Positions 9,001 to 63,866 of a stretch of DNA of 64,000 nucleotides are shown one piece after another (positions within the stretch are counted from its first letter, which is position 1; every line of letters begins with the position of its first letter). The position numbers were made by a program, and so were the translations under genes. This DNA comes from Haliotis asinina (Eukaryota > Mollusca > Gastropoda > Lepetellida > Haliotidae), in contig NC_090280.1 of assembly GCF_037392515.1 (NCBI RefSeq), positions 22,387,118-22,451,117 on the forward strand. Reading direction: 5' to 3'. The notes under the pieces are model-generated. The model was not told the DNA's origin, did not search any database, and saw only the letters and a list, made by a program, of their open reading frames with translations.

Positions 9001-10613
9001 ACGTGTAGATGTGGATCTGTACCCTCAGTGTAGGCTTCATGTGGTACTGTGGTCCTCTGTTGAGGAAGGTGAAGGATGGAGAGACGTGTAGATGTGGATC
9101 TGTACCCTCAGTGTAGGCTTCATGTGGTACTGTGGTCCTCTGTTGAGGAAGGTGAAGGGTGGAGAGACGTGTAGATGTGGATCTGTACCCTCAGTGTAGG
9201 CTTCATGTGGTACTGTGGTCCTCTGTTGAGGAAGGTGAAGGGTGGAGAGACGTGTAGATGTGGATCTGTACCCTCAGTGTAGGCTTCATGTGGTACTGTG
9301 GTCCTCTGTTGAGGAAGGTGAAGGGTGGAGAGACGTGTAGATGTGGATCTGTACCCTCAGTGTAGGCTTCATGTGGTACTGTGGTCCTCTGTTGAGGAAG
9401 GTGAAGGGTGGAGAGACGTGTAGATGTGGATCTGTACCCTCAGTGTAGGCTTCATGTGGTACTGTGGTCCTCTGTTGAGGAAGGTGAAGGGTGGAGAGAC
9501 GTGTAGATGTGGATCTGAACCCTCAGTGTAGGCTTCATGTGGTACTGTGGTCCTCTTTTGAGGAAGATGAGGGGTGGAGAGACGTGTAGATGTGGAACTC
9601 TTCCCTCAGTTTAGGCTTCATGTGGTACTGTGGTCCTCTGTTGAGGAAGATGAAGGGTGGAGAGACGTGTAGATGTGGATCTGTACCCTCAGTGTAGGCT
9701 TCATGTGGTACTGTGGTCCTCTGTTGAGGAAGGTGAAGGGTGGAGAGACGTGTAGATGTGGATCTGTACCCTCAGTGTAGGCTTCATGTGGTACTGTGGT
9801 CCTCTGTTGAGGAAGGTGAAGGGTGGAGAGACGTGTAGATGTGGATCTGTACCCTCAGTGTAGGCTTCATGTGGTACTGTGGTCCTCTGTTGAGGAAGAT
9901 GAGGGGTGGAGAGACGTGTAGATGTGGATCTGTACCCTCAGTGTAGGCTTCATGTGGTACTGTGGTCCTCTGTTGAGGAAGGTGAAGGGTGGAGAGACGT
10001 GTAGATGTGGAACTGTTCCCTCAGTTTAGGCTTCATGTGGTACTGTGGTCCTCTGTTGAGGAAGGTGAAGGGTGGAGAGACGTGTAGATGTGGATCTGTA
10101 CCCTCAGTTTAGGCTTCATTTGGTACTGTGGTCCTCTGTTGAGGAAGGTGAAGGGTGGAGAGACGTGTAGATGTGGAACTGTTCCCTCAGTTTAGGCTTC
10201 ATGTGGTACTGTGGTCCTCTGTTGAGGAAGGTGAAGGGTGGAGAGACGTGTAGATGTGGATCTGTACCCTCAGTGTAGGCTTCATGTGGTACTGTGGTCC
10301 TCTGTTGAGGAAGGTGAAGGGTGGAGAGACGTGTAGATGTGGATCTGAACCCTCAGTGTAGGCTTCATGTGGTACTGTGGTCCTCTGTTGAGGAAGGTGA
10401 AGGGTGGAGAGACGTGTAGATGTGGATCTGTACCCTCAGTGTAGGCTTCATGTGGTACTGTGGTCCTCTGTTGAGGAGGGTGAAGGGTGGAGAGACGTGT
10501 AGATGTGGATCTGTACCCTCAGTTTAGGCTTCATGTGGTACTGTGGTCCTCTGTTGAGGAGGGTGAAGGGTGGAGAGACGTGTAGATGTGGAACTGTTCC
10601 CCCAGGAGTCTCT
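1..10613 (-). repeat. 83-bp minisatellite array, about 128 copies, derived from the receptor tail exon
   Basis: Successive starts of the same motif fall at 1, 84 and 167, giving an 83-bp period that continues to about 10,613. Read on the minus strand, each unit holds the last coding stretch of the receptor tail exon (QIHIYTSLHPSPSSTEDHSTT then TGA, with F for I in the genuine exon) followed by a short 3' UTR piece. The copy at 10,531-10,613 is the real end of gene A; the rest would lie in its 3' UTR or beyond. Units differ at a few recurrent positions (GGTGAAGGG versus GATGAGGGG, TGTACC versus TGAACC). There are no unique spacers, so it is not CRISPR. The array runs off the left edge, so its true length and the gene A poly(A) site are unknown. 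Confidence 0.97.
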
Positions 10614-10714
10614 CGTAATCATGTAGAGGTAAGACATCGTTGTTGGAAGCACGAGGTACATCACTGAGGTCATGGGATAATCTCTCTGCCATCACAGTAA
10701 GGTATTCATTACAT
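10531..10714 (-). CDS. Gene A exon 12: cytoplasmic tail with ITAM-like motif
   Basis: Acceptor ATTACAG at 10714, then 60 codons and TGA at 10531-10533. The tail starts CNEYLTVMAERLSHDL, continues through RASNNDVLPLHD, and has YERLLGEQFHIYTSL, i.e. YxxL, seven residues, YxxL, which fits the ITAM spacing (6-8). YLTV upstream is a further YxxV. The last 27 codons lie inside the first unit of the 83-bp array. Confidence 0.85.
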
Positions 10715-13700
10715 CTGTAATAACAACATTACACGTACATTATACATTGTAATGAACTTGTTAGTGCTGTGCGGTTGTTTGTTATTTAAGGCCATATTCA
10801 GCAATATTCCAGCTATATGGCTGTGGTCTAGGCCAGGCATTCCAAAGATCAACAGCGTATAGGTTGATCTTCTCAATTGGCTTTCTTATTTAGATATGGC
10901 CTTAGTGTTCTGGTGTAAGTCGGGTAAATAGTGTTTAACACAGACATGAGACAGCAACTGGGCAAGTATATACAGGTTTACTCTGATGAGAGGAAGTTGA
11001 CCAGTATTTTATACCTTGCACACTACTCCAGCATTTAGGAAACAAAAGTAAACATATGTACCTTCTGTCCTGGTCCTCTGAAAACGAAACAAAGGGAACA
11101 CTAATAATCTTCTGCATTACCACCGAGTAAGTGAGTGAGTATGGTTTTGCTCTGCGTTTGACAATATTCATGAAACACCAGAGTGAGTGAGTGAGTTTTA
11201 AGCCGCCTTTAGCAATATTTCTTAGCACGATTACACAATGCCATTTAGAAAGTGATCAAATGCAGCATATGTCATATTTGGGATTTCACTTTCTTAGTAT
11301 TTCTAAAAAAATCTATAATTACTTTTTCATGGAGTCCCATCAGTATTCGAGCCCACACCCTCAGAGTCAGTACACAAAGTAAGCCGCCTAGCACGCTCAG
11401 TCACCAGGACTTCCACAAAATGGAAGTCGGACACCTGGTAGTCTAGACTGTGTACTCTGTGTACCCTCTGATAAGTGTAAGTGGCACGGCTCCCACGGCT
11501 CCCCAAAGCTATGATAAAATAATGCCATTTAAAAAGTGGGAGCCGTACCAGTTTACACTCTTCAGAGGGGTACACAAAGTACACAGTCTAGACTACCAGT
11601 TTTCCGACTACTCCATTTTGTGGAAGTCGCGGTGGCTGAGCGGGCTAGTCGGCTGACTTTATGTGCTGGCGATTGTTTGCCTGACTTTGAGGGTGCGGGT
11701 TCCAATCCCAGATGGGACTCAACCTAAAAAGTACTAAAATTTGTACTTTACTAAGAAATCCCAAATATGACATATGTTGCATTTCGTAGTGAGTGAGTGA
11801 GTGAGTGAGTATAGTTTTACGTCAAACTCAGCAATATTACAGCTATGAGGCGGCAGTCTGTAAATAATGTGTCAACCAAGTCAGCGAGTCTGACCACCAG
11901 ATCCCGTTAGTCGCCTCTTACGACAAGCATAATCGCCTTTATGGCAAGCATGGGTTGCTGAAGACCTATTCTACGCCTGGACCTTCACGGGTCTGCATTT
12001 CTTAGCACGACTGGGTACACCAGAAATAGACTGCACATATTTTGCCTATGTGGGAATGCTTTAACCATAAGGCTACTGCACTGACCTTTACTGAATCCAA
12101 ACAATTTGCATTTGTACTCATTCAAATAGGTGAGGTTTTTTTAATTTGGGAAGATTTTAGCTAATCGCTCCATACAACAATATTATGATGGTCAGATGGA
12201 GACGTGACAGGACAATAAGTTATTGAAATCCTGTGCATCGGTCTACGCAAATGGCATACGGGGATATGTGTCAATCAGGCCAGAGATCTTGACCAACCGA
12301 TCCTGTTGATCTCCTCTTGCGACAAGCATGGGTTCCTGAGGATCAGTTCTAATCCCATCTTGTACCCTTCACTGATTCGTAATTTATACTGATATCGCTG
12401 AAGGAATCGGCTAGCGTTACTCGCCTGTGAACATACCAGTGGGTTGTTGAAGACCAGTTCACCTTCGGGTAAGGACATGCTGCCTGTGGTGTGTTGGAGT
12501 GTTCAGGGGAGTGAACTGATGATTCAGTGCATTTGATTCATTTGAAGGAAAGGATTCATACCTTTCACGTCCTTGCAGACAAGAACAGTGACCACCACAA
12601 CAACAACTGCCACAGCAGTCAGCATAACGGAGTAGGCAGCTACGATGGGGACGATGCCGTCTATGTTGGCACCACCTCCTGATATAACACAATGTTAACA
12701 CATATGAATTTACCATTTGAAACATAAGTTAATATTCCTTATTATGTTCAACGCACAGCATTCGTTTTAGGAAATTAGGAAGAAATACTATTTACGTCTA
12801 TGTAACTACAATCGGTTTATAAGTCAAGAGTGCCCTGGACATCAATAGTGGCCAACTATGATCTTTCTCGGACAACCTTCCAGAGAACATACAATTCTTT
12901 ATACGCTAGCAGAATACCGCCTAGATGGCAAAAACGCACTAAAGGAAGCAAGCAATGAAGAAGAAAGAATACAGCTACCCAGAACAGTAGATCTGTTTCT
13001 CCAACATGGCGTATTACTGAACCCTGGTCCTGTTTTATGAACATTGGAAAGCGTCAAAAGTATTGTGATGTTTTGACGTCTAGGATGTAAAGACTTTAAA
13101 ATAGACATAGGAATGACATTTCTTTCTACTTATATCCAAAGTGTCTGGGTTTGAGACCCGACTGTTGTACCAGGGTTCTGTGCTTCAGACGGGAGTAAGT
13201 GAGTGAATTTAGGTTTACGCAGTACTCAGCAATATTCCAGCTATATGGCGATTGTCTGCAAATAATCGAGATTGGACTAGACAATCCTGTGATCAACAGC
13301 ATGACCATAGATCTGTGCAATTGGGAACCGATGACATGTGTCAACCAAGTCAGCGAGCCTGACCACCCGATCCCGTTAGTCGCCTCTTACGACAAGCATA
13401 GTCGCCTTTTTATGGCAAGTATAGTCGCCTTTACGCCTTTACGCCTTTATGTTTGCTCGACATATGAATACCCTATACGTCAGTTCGAGTTTCACACATC
13501 ATGCTACTTGTTAACCTTAAGACACCAATCTTCTATTTCCTGGTAGCTCCCATCATTTTCGTCTTCCCTGTGATACGACATCAGGCTGATGAAAGTGAAC
13601 ATTGAACGGCAGTAAACTGAGAGGAAATTATAAAGTTGTGACACACTCCCAATTTACATCGTGCTCCGAATCGAGCAATATTTTTAGTTAACAAATATGT

Positions 13701-16700
13701 TGGTTGGTTTGGTGTTTAACGACGCTCTCAGCAATATCCCAGCTATATGACAGTGGTCTGTAAATAAATGGTTCGGAACCAGACAATCAGCTGCTCAACA
13801 ACTTAAGCGTCGATCCCGTTCGTCACATTTTACGACAAGCATGGGTTGCTGAAGATTCAATTCACGGTTACTTACAACTGTGTGGTGATTGATGAACATA
13901 CACACCTATGACGAGCGCATCCTCTCTCTGAAAGTTTAAAGTGTGTGTAGTTTGCATACAAACTTCATGTTTAATCAAGGATAACTGTTTCATTGTGCGC
14001 ATGTGGATATAACCGTACATATTTAAATTTTCCACACTGATGTCCAAGACTGCTTTTCAGATATTGTACATAACACTAACTCTTTAGTAATTCGTATGAT
14101 CTGTTATTTTATGTCATCTGATTTTACTAGAATGACGTCCAGCACCAACCTACTATCTCCTCGTAGTCTCCGTCTGTGTCTGCGTCACGGGTGTATGTGA
14201 TAACGCTGGGGGAAGGAAATGTAGAAAGTGGTTGGAATCAAGGCTATATACAAAAACAATCCGCTTTCCTCAGATCCAGAATGATGCTAAGGACAAACTA
14301 GCTGTTACAGTTATATATATGCATGAATGTGTTAACAGAAAGGGTAAGCACGTTCTGCCTTATCGGTAGTTCACGCTCTTCTAACATTTGTTTAAAAGGA
14401 CAAAAACTCATAAGCGATGTGTCATTAATTCAGACTGGGCTTAATATTCCATATATACTGCTACTGTCTAGTGAAGTATAGCCAATCAAATCACTGTGTT
14501 TGCCATTAAGTGTTTCCACAATATCTTTGAAAAATAGCAGATACTACAAAGTTTTAAGTCAGCTGTTTACGCATTTTGCCTTACTCATTCGATACAGCTA
14601 CTCACCGATTATCAGGGTATCCTCTATCTGAAATAAATAATTCTGAGTAAATAGTTACATATGCACAATGTCAGATGAAAGAAATGTAAGACAAACGAAT
14701 TTTTCGTATAATTACGCATCTTTGAAGTGGAAATAAATATCTTGCTATTTGTAAAACGACATGTTTGTAGAACAAATGTCAGCTGAGGAACACCACTGTC
14801 CTGAAGCCAGTGCAAATATAAACTTGGAAACTGAAGGCCATTAAAGATGTAAATTTGTGCACACTGTTGGTGTATATCCTCTTCAAGATTTATACTCCTC
14901 TGATCCTGACGGTTAATGAAATGATTCCATACTGAACTATTTCTGAAAACCCAGAATCTCCGTATTATCATTAATCATGGAAGATCCAAAGCAAATTTTG
15001 AACAGAAACTGTGCTTGAAGTAATGTGACTTTGACATATAAACCTGATGCACACCAAGAAATACGTGCATTCCTGTATGGTCACGTGACTCATCATTTGC
15101 TGAAAATCACCTTTGCACCTGCAAATCGCGTGAAAACGCATAAAGGGAGATCGCCACATTGTCACATTGTCTTCACTCATTTAAGGAACAGGTTCAAGTC
15201 AGTCTCCAGAAGAGACATTACCATTCATGGAAGAAGCGACGGTACGATAGCGATTACGTCAGCTGGGACTGCATGCGCATAAGTATTCTATTTACTGGCG
15301 AGTCCTAATTTCATCTCAGTCATGCGTATACAAGGATCAGAGTGACGTGGACAGAGTAACGCTGACGGTTGAGTTCAGCAGGATTGAAGGAAGCCTAATG
15401 ATTTGTAGAGAGATTGGTAGTGATGGCAGGACACATGTGCACGTCTGTCATGGTCGAGTTACAGCTCAAACGTATACGTACTGAGAACAGCAGTCGCTCC
15501 TGTTCCCGGCGGCAGATCAACGCCATCACATTGTGCAACAGGACAGCCCCATACTGCTAGACGGAGCATAAACTATTTACAGGAAAACATCATTCCTGTC
15601 CTGTCGTGGCGTAACGCAAATAATTAAACATTTATCACAGTGATGCTTTTCCAAAGTAGTTCAGTATACTTTCACCGCCTCCTCTCACACTCTATACTAT
15701 CTCAAACTCTTCCTTAAAGGCCGCTTTCAGCTGTAGATGTCTCCCTGGCTCACAGACACGTTACAAACTAGACCTAGGGAGAATAAGTTAGTATAGATAG
15801 GACAAAATCATCACTTCCTTAACAATGTATCACATGTCAATATGAAGTGAAATACTTACCAAGTAGCTTTCTTCTAAATTGGCATCAGAAGCTACGTGCA
15901 AAAACATTGTTTTATGTTTTGCAGGCAAAGAAGTGGCATCAAATCAGTGCTTATTTGTATTGCTTAACATTGCTATAGGTGTATATACAAAGTTGTGAAA
16001 GGTATGTATATCAGTTGTTGGGGTGAAACGGAATAAGGTACTCCTCTGGTAACTATCTCGGCCTCCCTCACCACCTTCCTCACCAGCGTGTCGTTCTCCC
16101 ACAGTGACATTCAGTATTCAATACATATAAGAAAGTACAGAGGGGTAACGATGCACTGAACTCATGCACACACGCACGTACACTCACACGCACACGTACA
16201 CGCTCACTCAACATGAGTATGTGGTAAAGAAGTGTTTGTGAGAGAGGCCACTTCACATCACTCTCGAGTTCTAGTCATTTACTGTCACGTCACACTGTAT
16301 TACCTCCACGTCTCTGTTTTCTACAAACAACAACTATGACGACAACGGCGATGATCACAATCAGGACCGAACAGACAGCAGCCACGAGGACGATGGAAAC
16401 GACTCCAGATTCATTAAGCGAACGTGCTGAAACATTTAATATGGACAATATTCAGTTCAGTGTTGTATAATCATGTTTACTTTTTCCCAGAAACAACATC
16501 CAAGACATGTTGCTATATTTAAGGTAATGATGTAATTACAAAATACCAGACATATAATGTATACCCGGATTACAAATATAACCGGGGCTGCCCCGTATGG
16601 GTGGGTGGGTCAGCGGGTAAGTGGGTGGATGGATACGGGTGAGTGAGTAAATGAGTGACGTTTTCTGGCACTTATATCCCAGTAACATCACGCCTGTCAG

Positions 16701-19700
16701 TCAGCCAGTCAGTCAGCCAGTCAGTCAGTCAGTCAGTCAGTCAGTCAGCCAATCAGTCAGCCAGTCAGTCAGTCAGTCAGTCAGTCAGTCAGTCAGTCAG
16801 TCAGTCAGTCAGTCAGTCAGTCAGTACACTGCAAATCCACAAGAACAACGTCACTGTTTACGTCAACTCAGCAGTAGGCCATGCAACGTCGGAAACATCG
16901 GCGTTCCCATTGGTGCAGGCGAAGTTGAAGAAACGGAAATATGACTTACAGACGACCTCCAGTGTCAGGTTCCGTGATGAACTCCCATGTGTGTTGTTGA
17001 CGTGACACGTGTACTGTCCAGACACAGACACATCTACAGCTTGCATAGACAAGACAGCCTCCCTGTGCCCTGTAATCACCACCTGTCTGGATGTGTTCCA
17101 CCAGGTTACAGTGCAGGCAGGGTTACAGTCAGCAGAACATCTCATCGTTACAGACTTCCAATCTTCTACTTCCAGTTTGTCCCTTGTGCCGCCAACGTGT
17201 ATCTGGTCAGGTCCATCTGTAATGCATGTGAGATGGTCAGCTAAGAACGGAAATCTATTTCTGAGATATAAATCTAGTTTGCGTCTGTGACGTAAATGAC
17301 TGAATAAAGACAAGCTGCTTGGCTTGGCATGTGTTCTTGGGATTCATACTAATGGCAAACCTCTCTGACTCAAGTTCTGTTTTCCTCTCACAATAAGTAC
17401 AAGCTACAGCTGGGACACCGTTGTAACTCACTCACCCACTTTGTTGCTATGTGCAACTCTTGACAACATATTCGGGTGACCTTACAGTGACGTCATACCA
17501 GTGCCCCGTTCCTCAAAGCGATCTTAGCACTAAGACGATTGTAACTCCCAAACTTTACCATAGACGATTGTTACTCTAATGCTTTACCATAGACGATTGT
17601 TACTCTAATACTTTACCATAGACGATTGTTACTCTAATACTTTACCATAGACGATTGTTACTCTAATACTTTACCATAGACTTACGACAGGAACGGGACC
17701 CAGCTGCAGTTTTGACAACTTTGAAAGGATCATTGAAGCAGACCTGCCTCTAATTCCTATCCGAACTTTCACAATAATGATTTCTGTTCTGTTTACACAG
17801 CAGATGAAAGTTGTCACAAAACGGTCACTCAGAAGCAGTGTTTCAAAGATAAGTAATAGGAGGAGTTTCTGTTAACTAAAACAAGGTAATTATTACTCAC
17901 AGAGGACATCCAACACATGACGGTGACTCCAGTCAGACTCCAGCCCCTCCTCCACATCCTGGCACCTGTAGGTGTCTCCGTGGTTCTCTCCGCTGACGTG
18001 GGTTATTGTCAGGTCATCTCCACTTGTAGGAGACTCATCACCAGATTCCAGCAGGGTCTTGTCCCTCCTCCAGATGTAGGTCATGGCCAGTGGGGGGTGG
18101 TCCGGGGGTAGACTCCGGGAGGAGGAGGAGGAGCATGTGAGGGTGACATTCTCACCTGATACAGGTGAGGCAGGTCCGGTGATGGTAGGTGCGGTTGGCA
18201 TCTTTGTGAAAAAATATAACAAAGACCTTAACCTTAACGCTTGTGTCATTGTACAAGTTTTTTACTAAATCCTCTATACTTGTATTTATATACTGTTCAT
18301 TATTATCCATCTATCAAATGTTAAACAGTTTAAGTGTTCACTCGTCACGCCAAAGATCCCCACTCACTCACTCTGTCAGTGTTCCACAGTTACAACAGGG
18401 AATACGTGTTGACTGGATCTTAATGCTTCAACCCGTTTTGTTGATTAAATATGATAATTACCACACAACTACTTACTGAATCGAGTTAATAGTATTTTCC
18501 ATAGAGAGGCGGTAAAAGATGCAAGACTGATGCACTCGGATACACTTACTCATGTTAACGTGCGATAAGGCTTCTTTGTTGGCAGATATAAGTTATCACA
18601 CGAGTGTGTTTTGGGATGGTTAACATCCTGTATTGGGAAACATTATATTAAGCGAGCCTTGGTGAGCTAAATACATAGTGTTTATTCCTAATAAAGGATA
18701 CTAACCATCCCAAAACATACGAATGTGTTAACCTATTTATCATACAATGTCATTCTTATTTTAAAACTTTCTTACTACAAAAATGTGATTTCATTTGCCA
18801 CAGATCATAAAACTAAACTTCCTGATATGCCCGCATATCTATGACGTCACAAATATGTGTGTAGTAATACGTGACGTCACAAGCTCGGTGACGCAGTTTT
18901 CTAATGATCACTTATTTGACTGCGTTACGTCATGTAGTTCCCAGTTAACTTTTATGTTAAAGAACATATTGTTGTCAACAAATATTAACTTAGTTCGAAA
19001 AATGACAAGAAACACATGTGGAATTTGTGAAACTTTCATTTAAACTTTTGGTAAACAAATATAATTTTCATCCCATCGAAACAATACCCCACTATGAACT
19101 CTCCTGTCTCTTGTGTAAATTTCTCATCGGTGCCCTGACAAAAGAACGGATCAGAACCCGAACCACTAACTCTCAGATGCAAACTAGAGAGGTCATATCT
19201 ATCATTACGAGACAACAATTTTCTCTCATCAAGGCACTCACAGTGCACGGATATGTGGGCGTGTTTGTTTACAGTGTGAAAGTAGTCCTTAAAATTTGCA
19301 TATGACCTCTCTAATTTGCATCGGTATTCCGTATATGACCCCAAGGGATACCGAAAATATCCGTTGGCTTTATCCCGCCGAGAACGCTACCCTGTGTATG
19401 ATAAATACAGAAGAACCAGCATATCTCTGGAATAGTTGGCATAAACACCACACACACAATACACACATGCACACACACAATACACACATGCACACACACA
19501 ATACACACATGCACACACACAATACACACATGCACACACACACGCACGGACATATGCACACTAACATACGCACATTTGGACCCATGTCGCTATATACCAG
19601 CATACGATAATTTCACCTCACCTAAGCTTTCACTATTGGCAATACAAGGGTGAACAACTATTCATTCATGTTGGAGATGCATTAAGACAGTCAATGTTTA

Positions 19701-20386
19701 TTCTTCATGTACTACTCACGTGCTACAACGAGGACCTGTCTACATCCAGTAACATTCTCTCCATTGGTTCCCTGACAGTAGTAAGTACCAGCGTCCTGTA
19801 CAGTAACATTGTAGATGGTAAACCTCAGCTGTCCGGTCTGTGATGGTGAGTCCTCCCCGGTGTATCTGATCCAGGTCCTGTAGCCGGTGTGACTACTGTT
19901 GAGTACCACTACACGGTGTGCCTTGGGCTGGACCAGTAACGGTCTCTCAGCTACCGAACCATTCACCCATACATAATATATAAAGCTGACATTGTCTGGG
20001 TTCATGGTCATGGTAACATCTTCACCAACATGTGTAACAATGTATCGGTATCCAGTTGTCATGGAGGCAAGACCTGCACTCAAAACAAATATTGCTCATG
20101 AAAACAAGGCTAACAGTTGACACAAACACTGAAGCACATTAATTAAGCCTGCTCAATATAATACAAGCTAACAGATTCATAATATATATACAGGCATGCA
20201 AACGAAATGTAAGTCACAAATTAAAGCGTCGAAATTTGAGGCTTCGTTCAATAATATATTCGTACAAAAAAACTGGTCACTTATAAAAAGTCACGTAAAG
20301 CTCAGGATAATTCAAATGCTCTTTTCAGCTAGCACATACATACCACACACATGTAAGCCCAAAAACAGAATGTGAGTCAGAGACAT
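10531..20386 (-). CDS. Gene A: three-Ig-domain type I membrane receptor with ITAM-like tail (spliced, 12 exons)
   Basis: I read this as a cell-surface Ig-superfamily receptor: signal peptide, three Ig domains, one of two transmembrane segments, and a tyrosine-rich cytoplasmic tail. Exons, right to left: 20344-20386, 19720-20073, 17901-18203, 16950-17216, 16304-16426, 14606-14627, 14150-14205, 13906-13927, 13530-13585, 12562-12678, 11062-11077, 10531-10714. All joins keep frame. With TM2 only, the product would be 427 aa; with TM1 plus the tyrosine modules and no TM2, 481 aa. Two splice sites look damaged compared with gene B: the Ig2 acceptor (AG to AA) and the donor of the second tyrosine exon (GT to AT). 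Phases allow both exons or modules to be skipped in frame. Ligand and pathway are unknown; an immune or adhesion role is inferred from Ig domains plus the ITAM-like motif. The gene may be functional in shortened form or decaying. Confidence 0.72.
10772..10884 (-). mobile_element. SINE fragment (ACTCACTC-tailed family)
   Basis: It contains the family core CAGCAATATTCCAGCTATAT followed by GATCAACAGCGT. It is short and diverged. Confidence 0.5.
11062..11077 (-). CDS. Gene A exon 11: 16-nt microexon
   Basis: A 16-nt exon (phase 1 in, 2 out) between TTTTCAG and GTACAT, encoding DQDR with split end codons. It is present with the same length in all four units (NQDN or NQDK) and is the only phase-compatible link between TM2 and the tail exon. 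Confidence 0.65.
11250..11790. repeat. Large inverted repeat with tRNA-like heads in both arms
   Basis: Two arms of roughly 250 bp face each other around 11,512. The outer ends share CCCAAATATGACATATG and its complement; inner parts share GTAGTCTAGAC and flanks. In the right arm GGTGGCTGAGCGGG (A-box-like) and GGGTTCCAATCCC (B-box-like, one mismatch) resemble a tRNA-Leu/Ser-type head; the left arm carries the complement. It is either two head-to-head tRNA-derived SINEs or a foldback element. Unit B lacks it. Confidence 0.7.
11786..11993 (-). mobile_element. SINE copy with target-site duplication
   Basis: An internally deleted copy of the main SINE family, inserted at the right end of the inverted repeat. 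It is flanked by TGCATTTC on both sides (11778-11785 and 11994-12001). Features include TTACGACAAGCAT, GCATGGGTTGCTGAAG and the CTCACTCAC tail on the minus strand. Confidence 0.75.
12235..12370 (-). mobile_element. Diverged SINE fragment
   Basis: Weak but recognisable match to the middle and 5' parts of the family (CTACGCAAATGG, CGACAAGCATGGGTTCCTGA). Confidence 0.4.
12562..12678 (-). CDS. Gene A exon 10: transmembrane segment TM2
   Basis: The exon is 117 nt, phase 1-1, acceptor ATATCAG, donor GTATGA. It encodes GGANIDG then IVPIVAAYSVMLTAVAVVVV and CKDVK. It is a second membrane span, conserved in all four units. If used together with TM1 the tail would end up outside the cell, so alternative use of TM1 and TM2 is the simpler reading (inference). 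Confidence 0.85.
13194..13430 (-). mobile_element. SINE copy
   Basis: Nearly complete body: GCAATATTCCAGCTATATGG, AATTGGGAACCGATGACATG, CAACCAAGTCAGCGAGCC and CCCGTTAGTCGCCTCTTACG are all present. It lies in an intron of gene A. Confidence 0.8.
13530..13585 (-). CDS. Gene A exon 9: second tyrosine exon with YQEI motif (donor damaged)
   Basis: A 56-nt exon encoding LMSYHREDENDGSYQEIE, alignable without gaps to exon 7, so the 22+56-nt pair was duplicated. Genes B and D have a GTTGGT donor here; gene A has ATTGGT. Skipping exons 8 and 9 together removes 78 nt and keeps frame. Confidence 0.7.
13702..13875 (-). mobile_element. SINE variant (second subfamily)
   Basis: A related subfamily starting GGTTGGTTTGGTGTTTAACG with CAGCAATATCCCAGCTATAT and TACGACAAGCATGGGTTGCT. 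Close relatives sit at 27,452-27,655 and at the right edge of the window. Confidence 0.65.
13906..13927 (-). CDS. Gene A exon 8: 22-nt microexon, second copy
   Basis: A second 22-nt microexon, phase 1 in and 2 out, encoding RGCARH with split end codons. It follows CTTTCAG and ends at GTGTGT (GTGAGT in gene B). It is a tandem duplicate of the exon at 14606-14627. Confidence 0.65.
14150..14205 (-). CDS. Gene A exon 7: first tyrosine exon with YEEI motif
   Basis: A 56-nt exon (phase 2 in, phase 1 out) encoding VITYTRDADTDGDYEEIV. YEEI after an acidic residue is the classic preferred phosphotyrosine ligand of Src-family SH2 domains (established knowledge); use here is inferred. The donor is GTTGGT, weak but identical in all intact copies of this exon type. 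Confidence 0.72.
14606..14627 (-). CDS. Gene A exon 6: 22-nt microexon, first copy
   Basis: Between TTTCAG and GTGAGT sits a 22-nt exon (phase 1 in, phase 2 out) encoding RGYPDN with split codons at both ends. Gene B has the same exon, length and phase at 28566-28587 (KGYTFN). Preserved splice sites and phase are the main support for so short an exon. Confidence 0.65.
14628..16303 (-). other. Gene A intron between TM1 and the first microexon
   Basis: A 1.7-kb intron. It holds a plus-strand coding-like relic near 15,335-15,482 and otherwise no feature I can name. It aligns with the gene B intron at 28,588-30,384, so it predates the duplication. Confidence 0.6.
15335..15482 (+). pseudogene. 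Coding-like relic on the opposite strand
   Basis: The plus strand reads SDVDRVTLTVEFSRIEG, then MICREIGSDGRTHVHVCHGR, before a stop. The gene B intron has the same reading frame, longer, at 29,295-29,500. I cannot assign the family; two spaced Cys and alternating hydrophobics would suit a small extracellular beta domain. Confidence 0.35.
16304..16426 (-). CDS. Gene A exon 5: transmembrane segment TM1
   Basis: The exon is 123 nt, phase 1-1, acceptor TTTCAG. It encodes SRSLNESG, then a roughly 27-residue Val/Ile-rich hydrophobic stretch ending VVVC, then the basic stop-transfer RKQRRG. That is a type I orientation with the following exons in the cytoplasm. The gene B equivalent at 30385-30507 is colinear. 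Confidence 0.85.
16682..16826. repeat. (CAGT)n microsatellite
   Basis: An almost uninterrupted tetranucleotide run with a few CAGC and CAAT variants, in the intron between Ig3 and TM1 of gene A. The SQSVSQ open frames across it are artefacts of the repeat. Confidence 0.95.
16950..17216 (-). CDS. Gene A exon 4: third Ig domain
   Basis: The exon is 267 nt, phase 1-1, acceptor TTACAG, donor GTAAGT. It begins GPDQIHVGGTRDKLEVEDW and has MRCSADCNPACTVTWW followed by SGQYTCHVNNTHGSSSRNLTLEV. The canonical B-strand and F-strand Cys are present, plus two extra Cys in the B-C region that could pair with each other. It resembles the C2/I-set domains of animal adhesion and receptor proteins. Confidence 0.88.
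17532..17685. repeat. 29-bp tandem repeat, about five copies
   Basis: The unit TAGACGATTGTTACTCTAAT plus ACTTTACCA recurs every 29 bp (17561, 17590, 17619 and onward). It lies in the intron between Ig2 and Ig3 of gene A. Gene B has no expanded copy. Confidence 0.9.
17901..18203 (-). CDS. Gene A exon 3: second Ig domain (acceptor site damaged)
   Basis: An Ig-fold exon of 303 nt in the ancestral frame. It has GENVTLTC (strand B Cys), TYIWRRD (strand C Trp) and GDTYRCQ (strand F Cys), ending HVLDVL in phase 1 at a GTGAGT donor. Gene B has CACAG before the first base; gene A has CACAA. The nearest usable AG is 2 nt downstream and would shift the frame, so this exon may be skipped. Skipping keeps frame because it is phase 1-1. 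Confidence 0.8.
18609..18719. mobile_element. MITE-like palindromic insertion
   Basis: Inverted ends TGTTTTGGGATGGTTAACAT and ACTAACCATCCCAAAACA enclose about 65 bp. It is absent from the matching gene B intron. No transposase is present. Confidence 0.5.
19449..19550. repeat. CA-rich minisatellite
   Basis: Repeats of CACACACAATACACACATG, about 20 bp each. The HTHNTHMHTH and CVCMCVL open frames over it are repeat artefacts. Confidence 0.92.
19720..20073 (-). CDS. Gene A exon 2: V-like Ig domain
   Basis: The exon is 354 nt, phase 1-1, 118 codons, with acceptor TGCAG and donor GTGAGT. The fold signature is clear: the Trp of YYVWV for strand C, then GQLRFTIYNVTVQDAGTYYC for strands E-F. The usual B-strand Cys is Met here (VTMTM). 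A second Cys sits 11 residues after the F-strand Cys (TGCRQ). Several N-glycosylation sequons are present (NVS, NGS, NSS, NVT). Confidence 0.88.
20344..20386 (-). CDS. Gene A exon 1: signal peptide
   Basis: ATG at 20386 opens MSLTHILFLGLHVC, a short hydrophobic leader. The exon ends in phase 1 at a GTATGT donor. The next exon joins in frame (a shared Gly codon, then LASMTTGY). This start is preferred because the same exon is conserved in units B and C. A five-codon upstream ATG frame lies about 25 nt before it. Confidence 0.72.
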
Positions 20387-39814: not shown

Positions 39815-39845
39815 CTGATACAAGATGAGACATATCTGTATTAAG

Positions 39846-52279: not shown

Positions 52280-52560
52280 GACCCGTGAAGGTCCCGGGGT
52301 AGAATAGGCCTTTAGCAACCCATGTTTGCCATAAAAGGTGACTATGCTTGTCGTCAGAGGCGACTAACGGGATCGGGTGGTCAGACTCGCTGACTTGGTT
52401 GACACATGTCATCGGTTCCCAATTGCGCAGATCGATGCTCATGTTGTTGATCACTGGATTGTCTGGTGGAGACTCGATTATTTACAGACCGTCGCCATAT
52501 AGCTGGAATATTGCTAAGTGCGACGTAAAACTAAACTCACTCACTCACTCATTCATTCAC
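52280..52560 (+). mobile_element. SINE with 12-bp target duplication
   Basis: A full-length copy of the main SINE family flanked by TCTAAAGAGCTG (52268-52279 and 52561-52572). It lies inside the integrase part of the BEL element, so it is younger. The tail is ACTCACTCACTCATTCATTC. Confidence 0.92.
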
Positions 52561-52966
52561 TCTAAAGAGCTGTGTTGATTGCAACAAACGACAGAAGCTG
52601 CCCAATACCCAAAGAATGGGGGATCTACGTAAAGACGTGAGTGCAGGTGATCCTGCATTTACGAGTATTGGCTTAGACTGCTTTGGGCCATTCATGGTGA
52701 AACGGGGCCGGTGTGAGATCAAACGTTATGGATGTATTTTCACATGTTTGACAACAAGGGAAATACATCTAGAGAAGTTAGATGGACTGGTTGAATGGAT
52801 TTGTGAGATTCATAGCACGTCGAGGAAGTCCCAAGAGAGTACGCTCTGACAATGGAACAAATTTCCATGGTGCAGAAATTGAATTGAGACGAGCTATAGA
52901 TAACTGGAATTTAAAGAGAATTGGAGACTTCATGAGTAAGAAGGAAATATGTTGGATGTTTAACCT

Positions 52967-53008
52967 CCCCCCCCCCCCAACACACACACACACACGCGCG
53001 CGCGCGCC
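52967..53008. repeat. C-run and (CA)n(CG)n microsatellite
   Basis: A homopolymer C run followed by CACACA and CGCGCG repeats, inside the BEL fossil. Confidence 0.95.
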
Positions 53009-53582
53009 GCTTCTCATATGGGAGGTGCATGGGAGAGACTTATTAGGACAGTTCGTACAGTGATGAATGCTTTGTTGAAAACACATAGTCCACTGAATGA
53101 TGATGGTCTCCACACTCTGCTCTGTGAGGTTGAGTCGATTGTGAATTGCCGACCAATCACATTGGTATCAGATGATTACAGAGATCCTGAACCTCTAACT
53201 CCTAATCATCTGCTGTTACTCAGAGCAGGCCCAGATATACCCTTCAGAAGACGCTGGAAACATGTTCAGTTCCTGACGGATATATTTTGGAAACGCTGGA
53301 CAAAGGAATACTTGCCTTCGCTACAATTACGCCAGAAATGGATAATACCAAAGAGAAACATCAGGGTGAGTGATATTGTGCTAATTCTGAATGAAAATTG
53401 TCCTCCGAGAACTTTAGCAAGAGGCGTTGAAACATATCCTGGGAAAGATGGACTCGTGCGCAGTGCTATGGCTCGCACAGGAAGTTCTACACTTACCAGA
53501 CCTATTTACATGCTTTTGGAAGCAAACTTTGATGACAAATGAATGACCAGTATTTGTGTTCAGAAATGTAATAACAATGTGG

Positions 53583-53722
53583 ATGGCCTAATGGTTACGG
53601 TGTTCGCTTGTCACACCTAGAACCCAGGTTCGATTCCCGCATAGATGTGGTGTGTGTAGATCACTGTGATGTGCTTAGAGTATTGCTGAAATATCTGCTG
53701 AAGGCGGGAGGTACTCACTCAC
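53583..53722 (+). mobile_element. tRNA-derived SINE
   Basis: TGGCCTAATGGTTACGG (A-box-like) and GGTTCGATTCC (perfect B box), then GAGTATTGCTGAAATATCTG and an ACTCACTCACT tail. The 3' domain is shared with the main SINE family. Confidence 0.65.
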
Positions 53723-53805
53723 TATATGTACAGTATTTATGCTGGGTTTAATTTATTTAATGTTTGATTAACATGTAGTTTCTCTGCGCAATTAAGGGGC
53801 CGGTA

Positions 53806-54379
53806 TGTAAATGACAGGAAGTCACTTTACTTTATTTAGCGGTAGGCTGTTGAATGGCTTAGTTTTGGTCTGGGGCGGTAACTGCGGGTGGCGGGTATGA
53901 GGCGAGAAAAGCGTGCAGTGGGGCGCTGGGAACGAACATGTGCATCGCTGGAGGAGAAAAAGACGAACGGTTTCGTTGTTTGGGGTGCATTGATTCTGCC
54001 ACGAAATTTGTAAGTAATATATTTATTGGCATATGCATGCATGGTATACGTACTTAAGAAATATTATTTATAAAAGTACACTTAATAGCCAAAATGTTGA
54101 TAGCTACCACCATTATGATGTGACACGTGCATGTTTTACGGCATCTTGAATGACATGTAATAATAAGGTAATAACTGAGTTAGTAAGGTAAAAAGGCATT
54201 ATTTTGTACATAAGGGTATCATCCAAATAAGCCTCTATTTTGAATGGTTTCAGCTTGAACCTGCTACATGTGGTTTACTGTACAACGCAAATCTACTAAT
54301 GTGCACTACGTAACTGTCACAGAATAAAGCAGTGTTTGAGCCTGGCAGAATCGACTATTGCTGACTTTTGAAACTGACA
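53806..54379 (+). repeat. 3' LTR of the BEL/Pao element
   Basis: The same start and end as the 5' LTR, about 574 bp, with a roughly 40-bp stretch not present in the 5' copy. It is followed by the GCTAT target duplication. Confidence 0.9.
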
Positions 54380-56655
54380 GCTATATTTATGTTTCAATTC
54401 ATCATATTCTTGTTTATATTGTAATTCATTTGTTTCTGATTTTTTTTAAATGTGGTCATTGTTAGGTCCACTTGGGGTCTGACCAATATTGACAAGGAGG
54501 AGAAGAAAGAAGACGGGAAGGAGCTATATTTTCCAGCTCAATGCCGGCTGAAGAAAGAAATGGTTTAATTCTTAAACCAAGAGGCGGAACAAGAGAAGAC
54601 TTCTTATTGTATAAATCCTCATACAGAGAACTGAAAACACAGTTATATCCAGGGTTTGACTCACTGGAATATAATTTTGTTACATACTGTAAAGCTAATT
54701 TTATACGTCGCTGCTCAAGAGATGGCTCATCAGCCTCAACGTACAGGCTGTCAACAGGTGAAGTTCGAAAGGAGCCAGAACAAAGTCTTAGACCATGATG
54801 GTGAACAGAATCTAAAAGTTTTAGGTTGCTTTTGCAGGCTCCACCATATACAATGGAGCCAAAATAAACGTTTGAAAGGATCAATGATCGATAAAGTTGC
54901 AGGAAGGTAGCTTGATCCCCTCCCCACTTAGAATTTGAAACGACTTTCAACACGTCTAGTGCCTTCAAGCATTTAGTTTTGAGGCATTTGATATGTGGTA
55001 GAAACGTTAAATGTGAGACAAAAATTAATCCCAAGAACTTAGCCTCCTTTACAACTTTATGGGAGATCCATTTAGGAACAGTTCAGGATCTTTATATGGT
55101 TTATATTTTCTACAAAAATGTATACAATTAGTTTTTGATTTAGAAAATTTATAGCCGTTTTCAAGACACCATATATTTATTTTGTTTAAACACAGCTGCA
55201 GTTGCCGTTCAATAGTATGCATGTTTTTCCCACGACAAGAAATATTAAAATCATCCACAAAGAGTGATCCATCAATTGAATCGTTTAAAACTTTTGATAA
55301 ACTATTTATCTTTATACTAAAAAGTGTGACAGACAAAATGCTGCCTTGTGGAACACCCTGATCCTGATTGTAATGATCAGACAGGGTAGAACCCACTCGG
55401 ACTTGAAATTGTCTGTCATTTAAAACGTTTGCTATGAATCCAGTCAAACGACCTCATAAACCGAAATCATATAAATCTCTCAAAATGCCACATTTCCAGG
55501 TTGTGTCATATGCCTTTTCGAGATCAAAAAAGATAGACACAGCATGTTGTTTGTCAAGTAGCACGTTTTTTACAAATGATTCCAAACGCACGTGCCCGAG
55601 GTGATCGACAATACTTCTGTTTTACGGAAACCACACTGCATATCTGTTATGAGGTTATTTGTTTCCAAGTACCAAACAAGTCGATTATTTATCATACGTT
55701 CCATGGTCTTGCAAACACAGCTTGTTAATGAAATCGGACGATGATTGGATGGATCCGTATGATCACGTCCAGGTTTAGGTATTGGTACTACTATAGCATC
55801 ACGCCATGAAGAAGGAAATTTCCCGGAAGTCCAAATATCATCAAATATATATAAGAGCATCTCTAAACAGGATTCTGGTAATTGTATAAGTGCTTCAGGA
55901 GTTGATAATGTATGTTATCAGCTCCTGTAGCAGTGTCATGAGCTTGATCAAGAGCAGTATGGAGTTCATGACTAGAAAATGTTTCATTATCTGAATTGAA
56001 ATTAATAGTTTTCTTTTCTTGTTGTTTTTGATACTGCTGGAATTTAGTACATAATTAGAAGAGGATGAGTGTGTAGCGAGGGTTTCACCCAGTTTATTTG
56101 CAATATCTGATTTATCCGTAAGTAATTGGTCTCAATGTTTCAAATGATGGACACTAGATTTAGTACCTTTACCTTTAATTTTCTGGACCATGTTCCATAC
56201 ATAATTTTTTCAAGATTGGTGTTTGTTCTGTTTAAATGTACGCCATGCTTTAGCATTTTAAATTTTAAATTTGTGTAAATTATGCACCATGGGATGGCGA
56301 CGGAAATAATGTTTTGCATTTTTCCTTTCCTTTCTCGCTTGTTTGCAGTCATCGTTGAACCATGGTTTTCGAATATGTGGAACTGGAGAGGAGTGTGATA
56401 TACACTCATTAGCTATGGAATTCAATTCATCAGAAAAGCATTTAATAGCATCAGGAACGTCAATAAAACGGTCAGGTTTAAGTTTTGCAGTACATAGTCT
56501 TTCATATAAAGCCCTGTTAGCCTTTTTAAAATTCCGCCTTGATGATGGAGGAACATCAGATGGAGTTACCGATTTTAGTATGGTAGGAAAATGGTTACTT
56601 CCACAGAGGTCATCGTGGACTGATCATTCGAATTCTTTTAGTAGTTCTGAAATCT
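54380..56655 (-). mobile_element. Outer I-clade LINE, 5' part (truncated)
   Basis: Continuation of the LINE at 40,195-41,533: RT region (GVPQGSILS, LFVDDFNISC on the minus strand) back to the endonuclease region, ending near 56,655 where receptor-unit sequence resumes. It is 5'-truncated and its frames are broken. Total outer LINE length is about 3.6 kb. Confidence 0.85.
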
Positions 56656-61596: not shown

Positions 61597-61804
61597 GTAT
61601 AAAGAGTGGAGAGACGTGCAGATGTGGAACTGTACGGTCAATTTAGACTTCATGCGGTACTGTGATCCTCTCTGGAATATAAAGTTTGAAGAGACGTGTA
61701 GATGTGGAACTGTAATGTCAGTTTAGGTCAAGTCTGGTACTGTGTTCCTCTGTTGAGGAATATGAAGGATGGAGAGACGAGTAGATGTGGAACTGTTCCC
61801 TCAG
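61597..61804 (-). repeat. 83-bp repeat run at the 3' end of gene D (2-3 units)
   Basis: Two to three diverged units around the end of the coding exon; unexpanded. Confidence 0.88.
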
Positions 61805-61913
61805 GAGTCGCTCGTAATCATGTAGAGGTAAGACATCGTTGTTGGAAGCACGAGGTACATCACTGAAGTCATGGGATAATCTCTCTGCCATCACAGTAAG
61901 ATATTCACCACAT
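61718..61913 (-). CDS. Gene D tail exon with full ITAM-like motif
   Basis: 64 codons then TGA. CGEYLTVMAERLSHDF opens it; YERLLREQFHIYSSL is the ITAM-like stretch. Confidence 0.86.
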
Positions 61914-63866
61914 CTGTAATTATAACATTACACTTATATTGCAGTTAAAGTTGGCCTGCCCATAAGTGCATGAATTTTCCTTTCAAGCAGTGTGCAGTGG
62001 AAATCACCTCAACCATGATCATGGATTTCCAACCCTTTCTTAAATTGTTACATCAGTTACATAGGTACACTTGCTACTTTCTCTGCCATTTCCACAGGTA
62101 ATCGATGCCGGCTTTTATCTAAGACTTCTGGGGTAAGACGACAGCAACCGTTTATATGATGGTTTGTTTACTGGCTGTTACCATGACTGACTCCAATACT
62201 TAAGATAAAAGCTTAAAAACATGTACCTGTTGTCCTGGTTCTCTGCAAGTAAAACAAAAGACAAACTCGTACATTTCTCAGCTGATTGATTCGTCCACAA
62301 CTGTAAACAATTAAGAATAGTCCATCATCATCAGCAAGACCGGAACACCACAAATACCACTTCACTATACCCATGTGGGGAATCGAACCTGCGCCTTTGG
62401 TGTGAATACCTTATCCCCTGGCCTACCGACCGCTCCATTACTGAATCAAAAACTCAAACAACCTTTACAAACTAAAATCAGGACTAAATATTGCACCACG
62501 TGAATGTGAACCACGGATATGCCCGTATACTGTTCGACGCTGCATTCAACAACATCACAGCTAGACTATGCTTGTTTGATATATGCCAGACTTGCCGAGA
62601 ACACCCAGTGGTTGATATAATGAGCATCGATTTACGCAACTGGTATATGGGGAATAAACATGCATGAGCATAATCAGCCAGCGTTTCTCACCTGTTGTAG
62701 CATGCGTGGTTGTTGAAGACAAGTTCTGACTAAGTCTAGCACGTTAGGGTAACTCTGTGCTGGTTCCGGTGTGTTGGGGATTAGAGGTGGGGTTGAAACT
62801 TACATTGCATGCAAAAATATTCATGCGTTCTTTGTACCTTTGACGTCCTTGCAGACAAGAACAGTGACTGCTGCCACCACAAGTGCCACAGCAGTCAGCA
62901 TAACGGAGTAGACAGCTACGATGGGGACGATGTCGTCTACGTTTCCATCACCTTCTGATACAAGACAAAGATGACACATATCTGTATTAAGTACGATAAT
63001 TCAAGTGACAATACAGCGACGTGTTTCACCATGGTGTATTTTCTAGTTCCTGTTAAAGCATTATTTAACTTTATGACATAAATAATGTTTCTAAACTGAG
63101 CGAATAGTGTTTTTCTCTACAAGAACTATAACGTAATAAAGTAAGCAAGCAATGAATAAGGAAGAATCCTTCGTGAGGTACACCGGGATGACAGTTACAG
63201 CTGTCCAGACTAGTGGTTCGTTTTCCCCAACACGGCCCATCACCAATTTCTGGTAGTGCTTTATGAACACTGAGAAATGTCTTAAGTATTCGGACATCTA
63301 GAATATCCGACTCTATTTACAATGTTGTAGCTATTCTATTATGGCTATTTCAAACTAAATAATCGGGGGGTTTGGTCTCCTTGGTTGTTTTGAGACACGA
63401 CTCCTCTTCCAGGCTTCAGACACTAGACAGTTCGAGCTACGTTTCATCATAAAATGCACAGCTGTTCGAGTTTCACAGCCGTTCCACTGTCTGTAATCGC
63501 GTATGGAAGAGACAATCCAGTGATCAACAGCATGACCATCGATCTGCGCAAATGGGAACCAACCGATGACATGTGTCAACCATGTGAGCGAGAATGACGT
63601 GCCGATCCTTTCAATCGCCTCTTACGACAAGCATAGTCGTCGTTTATGGCAAGCATGGGTTGCTGAAGACTATCTAACCTGGACCTTCAAGAGTCCTTCA
63701 GACAGGAGATAATTCGAGCTACGTTTACTCGACATATCAGTGCCCTATACGGCGGTTTGAGTTTCACAGTCGTTACACATCATGCTAGTTGTTAACCTTC
63801 AGACACCAACCTTCCATTTCCTGGTAGCTCCCATCGTTTTCGTCTTCCCTGTGATACGACACCAGA
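61718..63866 (-). CDS. Gene D (partial): receptor tail, microexon, TM2 and second tyrosine exon
   Basis: Fourth paralogue; the rest lies beyond the right edge. Visible exons: 63811-63866 (LVSYHREDENDGSYQEME), 62838-62954 (TM2, GDGNVDD then IVPIVAVYSVMLTAVALVVA), 62227-62242 (16-nt microexon) and 61718-61913 (tail). All splice sites are consensus and all frames open. The tail has YERLLREQFHIYSSL, a full YxxL-x7-YxxL fit, and ends STRLDLN because the stop lies four codons further on than in A-C. YQEI is YQEM here. Of the four units this one shows no damage in the part that is visible. Confidence 0.8.
62227..62242 (-). CDS. Gene D 16-nt microexon
   Basis: Encodes NQDN with split end codons; acceptor TTGCAG, donor GTACAT. 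Confidence 0.65.
62310..62440 (-). mobile_element. tRNA-derived SINE
   Basis: Ortholog of 25,880-26,040, with GGTTCGATTCC on the minus strand. Confidence 0.55.
62530..62722 (-). mobile_element. Diverged SINE copy
   Basis: Ortholog of 26,130-26,315 (GAGCATCGATTTACGCAACT). Confidence 0.5.
62838..62954 (-). CDS. Gene D TM2 exon
   Basis: 117 nt, phase 1-1, acceptor TATCAG, donor GTACAA; hydrophobic span then CKDVK. Confidence 0.85.
63488..63690 (-). mobile_element. SINE copy
   Basis: CAATCCAGTGATCAACAGCA, CATCGATCTGCGCAAATGGG and GCATGGGTTGCTGAAG; fuller than the gene B ortholog at 27,028-27,152. Confidence 0.7.
63811..63866 (-). CDS. Gene D second tyrosine exon
   Basis: 56 nt, phase 2 in and 1 out, acceptor TTATCAG, donor GTTGGT. 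Confidence 0.75.

Follow-up and report, generated by a model that had tools for sequence, protein, structure and literature searches.

Paired activating and inhibitory Ig receptors are known chiefly from vertebrates. In the description given in PMC2413239, KIR/LILR, the Xenopus FcR-like receptors (at least 75 genes) and chicken CHIR (over 100) are tandem multigene Ig families with common ectodomain types, distinct TM types and ITIM tails in one class, and the genes reported here share this outline. The activating arm is built differently: FcR and KIR act through adaptor subunits, whereas the putative activating arm of the present genes has an ITAM in its own tail. In Pfam, the present ectodomain matches generic Ig families. 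Salmonid NILT are likewise clustered V-type Ig receptors whose own tails bear ITAM or ITIMs but, compared by description, they are fish receptors with far fewer genes and one or two Ig domains (PMC3022915).

Pairing in invertebrates was already mentioned in a 2008 paper, and motif-bearing Ig receptors are already known in oyster, Hydractinia and Botryllus. The Botryllus fester co-receptors and Hydractinia Alr are described as invertebrate Ig families with ITIM and ITAM or hemITAM, a likeness to the present family; Botryllus FcoR has 53 loci with ITIM and hemITAM (PMC12065747). By the same description, these are allorecognition loci and the Botryllus motif is a hemITAM rather than a full ITAM, which sets them apart. 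Oyster CgIgIT2 (five Ig domains) and CgSiglec-1 (two) are immune receptors of a mollusc that carry Ig domains or immunotyrosine motifs, and in this they resemble the present receptors, but the accounts of them are of single genes whose domains are laid out differently (PMC11999971, PMC5877582). CgIgIT2 is ITAM-bearing according to a review, yet inhibitory according to the title of a work cited there, and the oyster hemITAM lectins CgCLec-TM1/HTM are reported to associate with Syk and to couple to Syk/ERK (PMC13027682). The descriptions of CgIgIT2, CgSiglec-1 and the hemITAM lectins mention no paired array (PMC11999971, PMC5877582, PMC13027682), and no paired ITAM/ITIM array from a mollusc was found among the matches listed in the literature searched, which lay mostly outside subscription journals.

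The DNA analysed here, a window of 64,000 nucleotides, carries four double-tyrosine boxes on its minus strand, at 10573-10617 (unit A, YERLLGEQFHIYTSL), 25313-25357 (unit B, YERFLREQFHIYTSL), 39008-39052 (unit C, YERILREQFHIYTSL) and 61772-61816 (unit D, YERLLREQFHIYSSL). The four tail exons holding them are sited where a preliminary description had placed them. That description spoke of four units; four tail exons there are, but not four full units, C being a fragment and D being cut at the window end. The window is not remarkable by motif alone. A strict pattern (D/E x0-2 YxxL/I x6-8 YxxL/I) has 3 matches in the six frames of 10606-64000, a range that excludes the box of unit A, and 40 mononucleotide block shuffles gave a mean of 1.8 matches and a largest count of 6. 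The strength of the case lies in conservation across copies.

Units A and B, both on the minus strand, run from a signal-peptide-like exon through a V-type Ig exon, Ig2, Ig3 and TM1 to a pair of short cassettes with tyrosines, after which come TM2, the 16-nt exon and the tail. In unit A, the signal-peptide exon (MSLTHILFLGLHVC, 20344-20386, phase 1 donor) precedes the V-type Ig exon (19720-20073; Pfam ig at 9.7e-06, over the cut-off, and V-set at 3.4e-05, just below it), Ig2 (17901-18201, 5' end approximate; Pfam ig 2.5e-07), Ig3 (16950-17216; Pfam I-set 1.8e-08) and TM1 (16304-16426, phase 1-1). Each cassette exon has a 22-nt exon before it, at 14606-14627 for Y1 (DYEEI; 14150-14205, phase 2-1) and at 13906-13927 for Y2 (SYQEI; 13530-13585, ends set from homology to unit B). 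Then come TM2 (12562-12678, phase 1-1), the 16-nt exon (EDQDRR; 11062-11077, phase 1-2) and the tail exon (10531-10714, phase 2 to stop). Two splice sites of this unit are damaged: the Ig2 acceptor has changed from CACAG to CACAA and the Y2 donor from GT to AT. For the 22-nt exon that precedes Y1, frames 0-1 were read by hand and rejected because stops arise in Y1. An exon ASDANLEESYL after TM1, which B and D do not keep, was dropped, as was a possible extra exon after TM2 (12437-12481, SMSLPEGELVFNNPL), whose phases misfit and which the minus-strand subfamily has not conserved. A stretch resembling SMSLPEGELVFNNPL is retained in most plus-strand loci.

Unit B has lost the donor of its signal-peptide-like exon (34409-34457; AT in place of GT). 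Its V-type Ig (33807-34160), Ig2 (32420-32722) and Ig3 (31608-31868) exons, for which the evidence includes a Pfam search, are followed by TM1 (30385-30507), a 22-nt exon (28566-28587), Y1 (GYEEI; 28105-28160), a second 22-nt exon (27708-27729), Y2 (SYQEI; 27287-27342), TM2 (26426-26542), the 16-nt exon (25815-25830) and the tail exon (25271-25454). Unit C is truncated: exons upstream of TM2 were looked for and none was found, leaving TM2 (39698-39814), the 16-nt exon (39477-39492) and the tail exon (38966-39149). Unit D has its tail exon at 61718-61913, its 16-nt exon at 62227-62242, TM2 at 62838-62954 and Y2 at 63811-63866. When the window end is joined to the adjoining locus, L073, unit D continues upstream of Y2 with y2a, Y1, y1a, TM1, Ig3, Ig2 and V, the V, Ig and TM1 exons lying beyond the window. 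From V down to the 16-nt exon, all ten of its exons have splice-site motifs. That Ig exons and tail exon are spliced together, as the preliminary description has it, is predicted from the splice phases.

Most units of this family, which we call group 1, have two phase-1 TM exons, and the splice phases permit the use of either TM1 or TM2; in three units TM1 is present and a TM2 match is absent. With two such exons, the ITAM tail would be cytoplasmic only if one of them is skipped; if both were included, the tail would end up outside the cell. Between TM1 and TM2 lie two tyrosine exons (YEEI, YQEI) that the preliminary description did not name; these short YxxI cassettes were both present in each of the three units read completely. 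When the Y2 exon was used as a DNA query, 40 matches were scored of 54 candidates; those listed all fall at 22.36-23.52 Mb, and none among them belongs to the second, ITIM-tailed group described below. Interchangeable TM exons together with YxxI cassettes suggest that splicing could yield either TM1 followed by a long tail or TM2 followed by just the ITAM.

Across the host genome there are 57 copies of the group 1 tail exon, 55 of them on one contig (C1) at 22.35-23.57 Mb, that is, within 1.2 Mb. In every one of the 57 copies (45 distinct coding sequences) both tyrosines and the x7 spacing are retained. The ITAM consensus is YxxL/I, 6-8 residues, YxxL/I. At position +3, box 1 has L in 42 copies, V in 9, P in 4, F in 1 and I in 1, and box 2 has L in 56 and F in 1, so that L or I is found in 43/57 and 56/57, respectively. 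The strict L/I form is therefore failed by 14 copies at box 1, unit B of the window being among the V/P/F copies, and by 1 at box 2. The group 1 tail thus fits the ITAM consensus, whereas the V/P/F copies do not. In its reading frame the tail shows purifying selection, with a pN/pS of 0.41 (95% interval 0.24-0.76) over the 45 distinct sequences, whereas the two other frames give 1.75 and 1.71; for the boxes alone the value is 0.26. Going upstream on the same strand, the order tail-TM2-TM1-Ig3 is found in at least 49 of the 57 copies (on an Ig3 list with 150 of 258 candidates scored), and in at least 38 a V match precedes the next tail. The 16-nt exon with its splice sites was present at all 31 loci examined of the 57. 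A Pfam search of the tail gave no family match at E up to 1, and no distant relative of it was found in the host genome. The tandem Ig receptor family and the ITAM-like tail of the preliminary description are thus borne out, any coupling to a kinase being conjectural; conservation of box 2 and of the spacing, which it had asked about for the wider family, holds across the copies of the host genome. The Egg_lysin family, with 6 exon matches over the cut-off in the host genome and none in 14 control genomes of unspecified make-up, lends indirect support to its label "molluscan".

Could this conservation stem from recent duplication and minisatellite homogenisation in a largely decaying array, rather than from function? 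Part of the array has indeed decayed, given the damage to units A, B and C and the stops in 22 of 118 V rows, and array blocks recur with a fixed spacing of about 333 kb. Furthermore, box 2 belongs to a minisatellite. The 83-bp unit that fills positions 1-10605 on the minus strand (127.8 copies, extending past the window start) duplicates the last part of the tail exon, box 2 and the stop included, and it recurs beyond the stop in 57/57 loci. However, all 57 tails are open through box 2 (one, L028, ends at least 11 residues early, past the box), and diversity in the box-2 block is four times lower in the coding copy (pi 0.041) than in the first post-stop copy (0.160); YxxL/I is retained in 56/57 of the former versus 32/57 of the latter. 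In view of this contrast in diversity, homogenisation of the satellite does not account for the conservation of box 2. Together with the in-frame constraint and the ten exons of unit D with splice-site motifs, the contrast makes a functionless array improbable.

A second cluster on the same contig, at 24.2-27.2 Mb, combines the same V/Ig ectodomain with a TM that has diverged and a tail of ITIM type (LTYADL ... VVYE[E/Q]I). Such tail exons (group 2) number 26 genome-wide, 25 of them in this cluster. The ITIM consensus is [SIVL]xYxx[ILV], and the group 2 tail fits it: box 1 does so in 21/26 exons and box 2 in 22/26, leaving failures of 5/26 and 4/26, with four exons that fit at neither box. The in-frame pN/pS is 0.36 (0.16-0.88; 17 distinct sequences), overlapped by the out-of-frame values of 0.92 (0.38-5.46) and 1.21 (0.49-6.39). 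An outlying locus at 2.94-2.96 Mb of contig C1 has diverged V, Ig3 and ITIM tail.

The ectodomains of the two groups appear interchangeable. In comparisons of a few exons each (group 1 + group 2: 8 + 3 V, 6 + 3 Ig2, 4 + 5 TM1, 4 + 1 Ig3), V DNA identity is 0.918 between groups and 0.917 and 0.930 within them, and Ig2, like V, is about as similar between groups as within. The V tree mixes the groups, its internal support being low, and a group 2 V query finds copies of both groups among its best matches. TM1 identity, by contrast, is 0.720 between groups against 0.880 and 0.908 within, and the split has a support of 1.000. Judged from these sequences, a shared ectodomain with split TM and tail is the anatomy of paired receptors. 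Among 11 V exons, pN/pS is 0.72 (0.49-1.03) and no positive selection was detected. A fold prediction for V from 11 sequences had a mean pLDDT of 51, too poor for use. A PDB search with the V of unit B gave Fc receptor-like 5 as its best match (E 3e-05, over 19 residues), then a mix of NCAM2, CEA, antibodies and FcepsilonRI alpha.

The tail tyrosines might instead be YxxPhi sorting or endocytosis signals of Ig adhesion or uptake receptors that do no ITAM/ITIM-type signalling. The YxxPhi consensus is fitted by YERL/V/F/I and by YTSL, so most tail-box letters suit either reading; V and F at +3 (10/57) are permitted by YxxPhi and not by ITAM, and the x7 spacing, invariant in 57 copies, lies in a region without any indels. 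P at +3, found in four copies, suits neither. On the other hand, sorting signals do not predict a sister cluster that has the same ectodomain and two ITIM-fitting boxes, and the additional YEEI/YQEI cassettes are of a motif type that serves as SH2 ligands. Taken together, we consider a sorting role unlikely.

With activation-type tails in one cluster and inhibition-type tails in its sister, this mollusc seems to own an activating/inhibitory system. We think it probable that the genes encode type I surface receptors, each with three Ig domains, which make up such a paired system in a marine gastropod, itself probably an abalone. The comparison with paired receptor clusters in the preliminary description is strengthened by the ITIM-tailed sister cluster with its interchangeable ectodomain; the immune role and kinase coupling that went with it are presumptive. 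In the model that we favour, groups 1 and 2 would bind the same kind of ligand through the common ectodomain, which exchange between copies would keep interchangeable. Clustering of the receptors would lead a Src-type kinase to phosphorylate the tails. The phosphorylated double box of group 1 would then engage a tandem-SH2 (Syk-type) kinase and activate the cell, while the phosphorylated boxes of group 2 would engage an SH2 phosphatase and restrain it. The choice between TM1 with the long tail and TM2 with the ITAM alone could be made by splicing. A candidate Syk-like tandem-SH2 kinase lies at 18.11-18.13 Mb of another contig (C7), where a Syk tandem-SH2 query is matched at 4-60, 45-117 and 127-184, in order and on one strand (E 9e-7, 4e-4 and 1.5e-4; stops in two of the three pieces). 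The top match of this query genome-wide is a single SH2 piece on contig C2 (6e-8).

The same activating/inhibitory logic might serve allorecognition or gamete/self recognition rather than anti-microbial defence. Abalone is not a colonial animal, which weighs against this alternative, and we give it little credence. In its favour, a large array with both tail types has an outline like that described for Botryllus FcoR (PMC12065747). A role of this kind has been proposed for Botryllus and Hydractinia.

Beyond the paired system itself, we tentatively entertain a counterpart, in a protostome, of the leukocyte receptor complex: a single contig bearing about 57 ITAM and 25 ITIM tail exons, with ectodomains exchanged and TM and tails held apart, in which the inhibitory form may be ancestral and the activating one derived later, and in which the TM splice choice might set the signal strength of each activating gene. 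The inhibitory form would be the older one because the outlying locus carries an ITIM tail and the ITAM tail is without a distant relative in the genome.

So large a mollusc array, with both arms, common ectodomains and motifs under purifying selection, would be a testable independent case of receptor pairing. It would open the questions of which ligand the two arms bind in common, whether inhibition preceded activation in their evolution and how opposing signals are balanced in a haemocyte. If the host is an abalone, the array may also bear on the disease resistance of farmed animals.

The ITAM-like tail is a constant feature of a large receptor family in Haliotis asinina. The preliminary description had recognized four ITAM-like boxes in the window, and each was found exactly where and as it had been given. 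The 1.14-Gb assembly (159 contigs) was then searched in full, at E values up to 5, with a 39-residue tail query that excluded the second tyrosine motif (box 2). This search returned 57 genomic matches, the weakest of which has an E value of 6e-14, so that the edge of the family is sharp. Fifty-five lie at 22.35-23.57 Mb of contig C1, which carries the window, and two at 28.06-28.09 Mb. One of the outlying tails belongs to a unit with the second and first transmembrane exons (TM2, TM1) and the third Ig exon (Ig3), the other to a unit with TM2 only. All 57 tails (56 loci and unit C of the window), comprising 45 distinct coding sequences, were read. The frame is open through box 2 in every one; in locus L028 the stop comes 11 or more residues early, yet after box 2. 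Tyr33 and Tyr44, and the spacing of seven, are kept in 57 of 57. The +3 residue of box 1 is L in 42 tails, V in 9, P in 4 and F and I in one each, while that of box 2 is L in 56 and F in one. In-frame pN/pS is 0.41 (0.24-0.76), falling to 0.34 over residues 30-47 and 0.26 over the eight box residues; the two other frames give 1.75 (0.86-3.69) and 1.71 (0.96-3.15).

A minisatellite bears on the conservation of box 2. At window positions 1-10605, extending left of the window start, an 83-bp unit recurs in 127.8 copies with 98% matches. This unit is a copy of the end of the tail exon, including box 2 and the stop codon, and a further unit copy follows the stop in all 57 tails (up to 7 mismatches in 23 allowed). 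Such copies could by themselves make box 2 seem conserved. Comparison of the coding and post-stop copies rules out the minisatellite as the sole source of this conservation: in the 23 bases compared, the coding copy has a pi of 0.041 and the first post-stop copy one of 0.160, and YxxL/I is retained in 56/57 versus 32/57, respectively.

The tail exons are accompanied by receptor exons. TM2, TM1 and Ig3 lie in this order upstream on the same strand in 49 of the 57 cases (Ig3 was placed from the best 150 of 258 candidates, from which absences of Ig3 may stem). In 38 of those 49 a match to the first extracellular (V) exon also lies no more than 45 kb away, ahead of the next tail; distances to the nearest V range from 8 to 31 kb, and some of the far matches may therefore belong elsewhere. 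TM2 gave 54 matches and TM1 gave 80, 55 of them in the ITAM-tailed array (group 1) and 25 in a sister cluster (group 2). The best 40 of 54 candidates for the short cassette exon Y2, searched as DNA, are all in group 1. Array blocks are repeated with a fixed spacing of about 333 kb, as at C1:22.74-22.81 and 23.07-23.14 Mb, where tails and V exons are near-identical (tail pairs 22769579/23103043, 22788631/23122101 and 22810317/23143506). These blocks represent either a young duplication or an assembly duplication, and because several of them recur, copy numbers may be inflated; the figures of 57 ITAM and 26 ITIM tails count exons and do not imply gene number. In thirteen V rows between C1:22552978 and 23398538 the match is confined to the second half of the query and contains a TAG, with the first half matched separately alongside; these rows are a recurrent pseudo-V type.

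Units A and B, on the minus strand, display the exon order signal peptide, V, Ig2, Ig3, TM1, 22-nt exon and Y1 (YEEI), 22-nt exon and Y2 (YQEI), TM2, 16-nt exon and tail. In both units, each of the three extracellular exons scores as an Ig domain over a Pfam cut-off; V-set, for the first, falls slightly below its own. Read by hand, V, Ig2, Ig3, TM1 and TM2 are phase 1-1 and the small exons phase 1-2, the next exon beginning in phase 2. Because the phases match, Ig3 can join TM1 or TM2, and TM1, Y2 or TM2 can join the tail; the tail would face outside the cell if both transmembrane exons were included. TM2 is 31-41% alike TM1 (tblastn, E 2e-4 to 7e-3) and may therefore be a copied transmembrane module. 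Three units (C1 22348189, 23344315 and 23390205) have TM1 without a TM2 match upstream of the tail; in the first, L022, TM1 and tail are 933 bases apart.

The window's own units are a mixed bag, and the claim is carried by the family evidence. Unit A has a damaged Ig2 acceptor (CACAG to CACAA) and has lost the Y2 donor, the signal-peptide exon of unit B has no GT donor, and unit C consists of TM2, the 16-nt exon and the tail only. Unit D has ten exons with splice-site motifs, from V to the 16-nt exon, and also a tail; a search for its signal-peptide exon found none. Such exons precede 9 of 11 V exons examined. Retroelement remains, named from reading frames, lie between units C and D (41034-56623). 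Frames read by eye are gag/RT-like at 42770-46342 (+) and endonuclease/reverse-transcriptase-like at 47825-51514 (+) and 54462-56623 (-). An interspersed repeat of the 'gtaagaggcgactaacgggatcgggtggtca' type, common in abalone genomes, recurs at 13340-13460, 11840-11960 and 12260-12340. Elsewhere in the assembly, at C14:26.67-26.92 Mb, six exon matches that pass the cut-off represent Egg_lysin, a family known from abalone and Tegula and found in 0/14 control genomes; their presence points to a vetigastropod.

The V query also matched a second set at C1:24.2-27.2 Mb. Five of these group 2 loci (L075-L079) have a TM1 type particular to the group, with FRRNR or FRRSR at its end, and the three read far enough (L075, L077, L078) share a last exon of the form ...VLKFQNDDGLTYADLALE...REEPVVYEQIDFALTPG.... 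A genome search with this exon gave 26 matches; 25 of them fall within 24.24-27.15 Mb, and the remaining one, at 2.96 Mb, is 69% alike. The ITIM consensus fits box 1 in 21/26 and box 2 in 22/26; neither box fits in L100-L103, and box 2 alone fits in L098. Stops occur in L105 (three), L092 (one) and L098 (one). Over 50 codons of 17 distinct sequences, with L104 and L105 excluded, in-frame pN/pS is 0.36 (0.16-0.88), and the out-of-frame values of 0.92 (0.38-5.46) and 1.21 (0.49-6.39) have ranges that overlap it. Another conserved exon, with DVYATV (...SDVYATVQ...), lies between TM1 and the ITIM tail, with splice sites, in 4/4 loci scanned (read-strand offsets L075 7419, L077 4449, L078 3386, L079 4950).

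The two groups are separated by TM1 and not by ectodomain DNA. V identity is 0.917 within group 1 (28 pairs), 0.930 within group 2 (3) and 0.918 between them (24), and inner branches of the V tree have weak support. The corresponding values are 0.925, 0.927 and 0.914 for Ig2; for Ig3, with only 4 + 1 copies, they are 0.880 within group 1 and 0.895 between groups. TM1 gives 0.880, 0.908 and 0.720, the split having a support of 1.000. One V exon of group 1, that of L043, is preceded by a group 2-like signal-peptide exon (11 mismatches in 52).

Near 3 Mb of C1, V (38%, 2.940 Mb), Ig3 (64%, 2.949 Mb) and an ITIM tail (69%, 2.964 Mb) lie on one strand within about 24 kb and probably form one gene; a further V (39%) and Ig3 (65%) at 3.03 Mb are without a tail match. 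For the ITAM tail, no distant relative appears in the genome at E up to 5. Together with the diverged ITIM locus this tentatively suggests, from that single locus, that the inhibitory form is older than the activating one. A tandem-SH2 query for the kinase SYK matched six rows. Three collinear pieces lie at C7:18.11-18.13 Mb (E 9e-7, 4e-4 and 1.5e-4); one extends into the stretch between both SH2 domains, and two of the three contain stops, which are perhaps exon ends. C3:68.07 Mb has two SH2 pieces, and the strongest individual row maps to C2:32.99 Mb (E 6e-8). The genome thus holds a Syk-like candidate, at most a putative orthologue and potential interaction partner.

A mollusc array with both arms is not described in the portions available of reviews of the invertebrate IgSF (PMC11999971), Botryllus (PMC12065747) and marine and mollusc immunity (PMC9505182, PMC5877582), or of accounts of Xenopus paired receptors (PMC2413239), salmon NILT (PMC3022915) and marine lectins (PMC13027682). 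Judged by its anatomy, the abalone array would work like paired receptors; the likeness is one of build and implies no descent from any named family.
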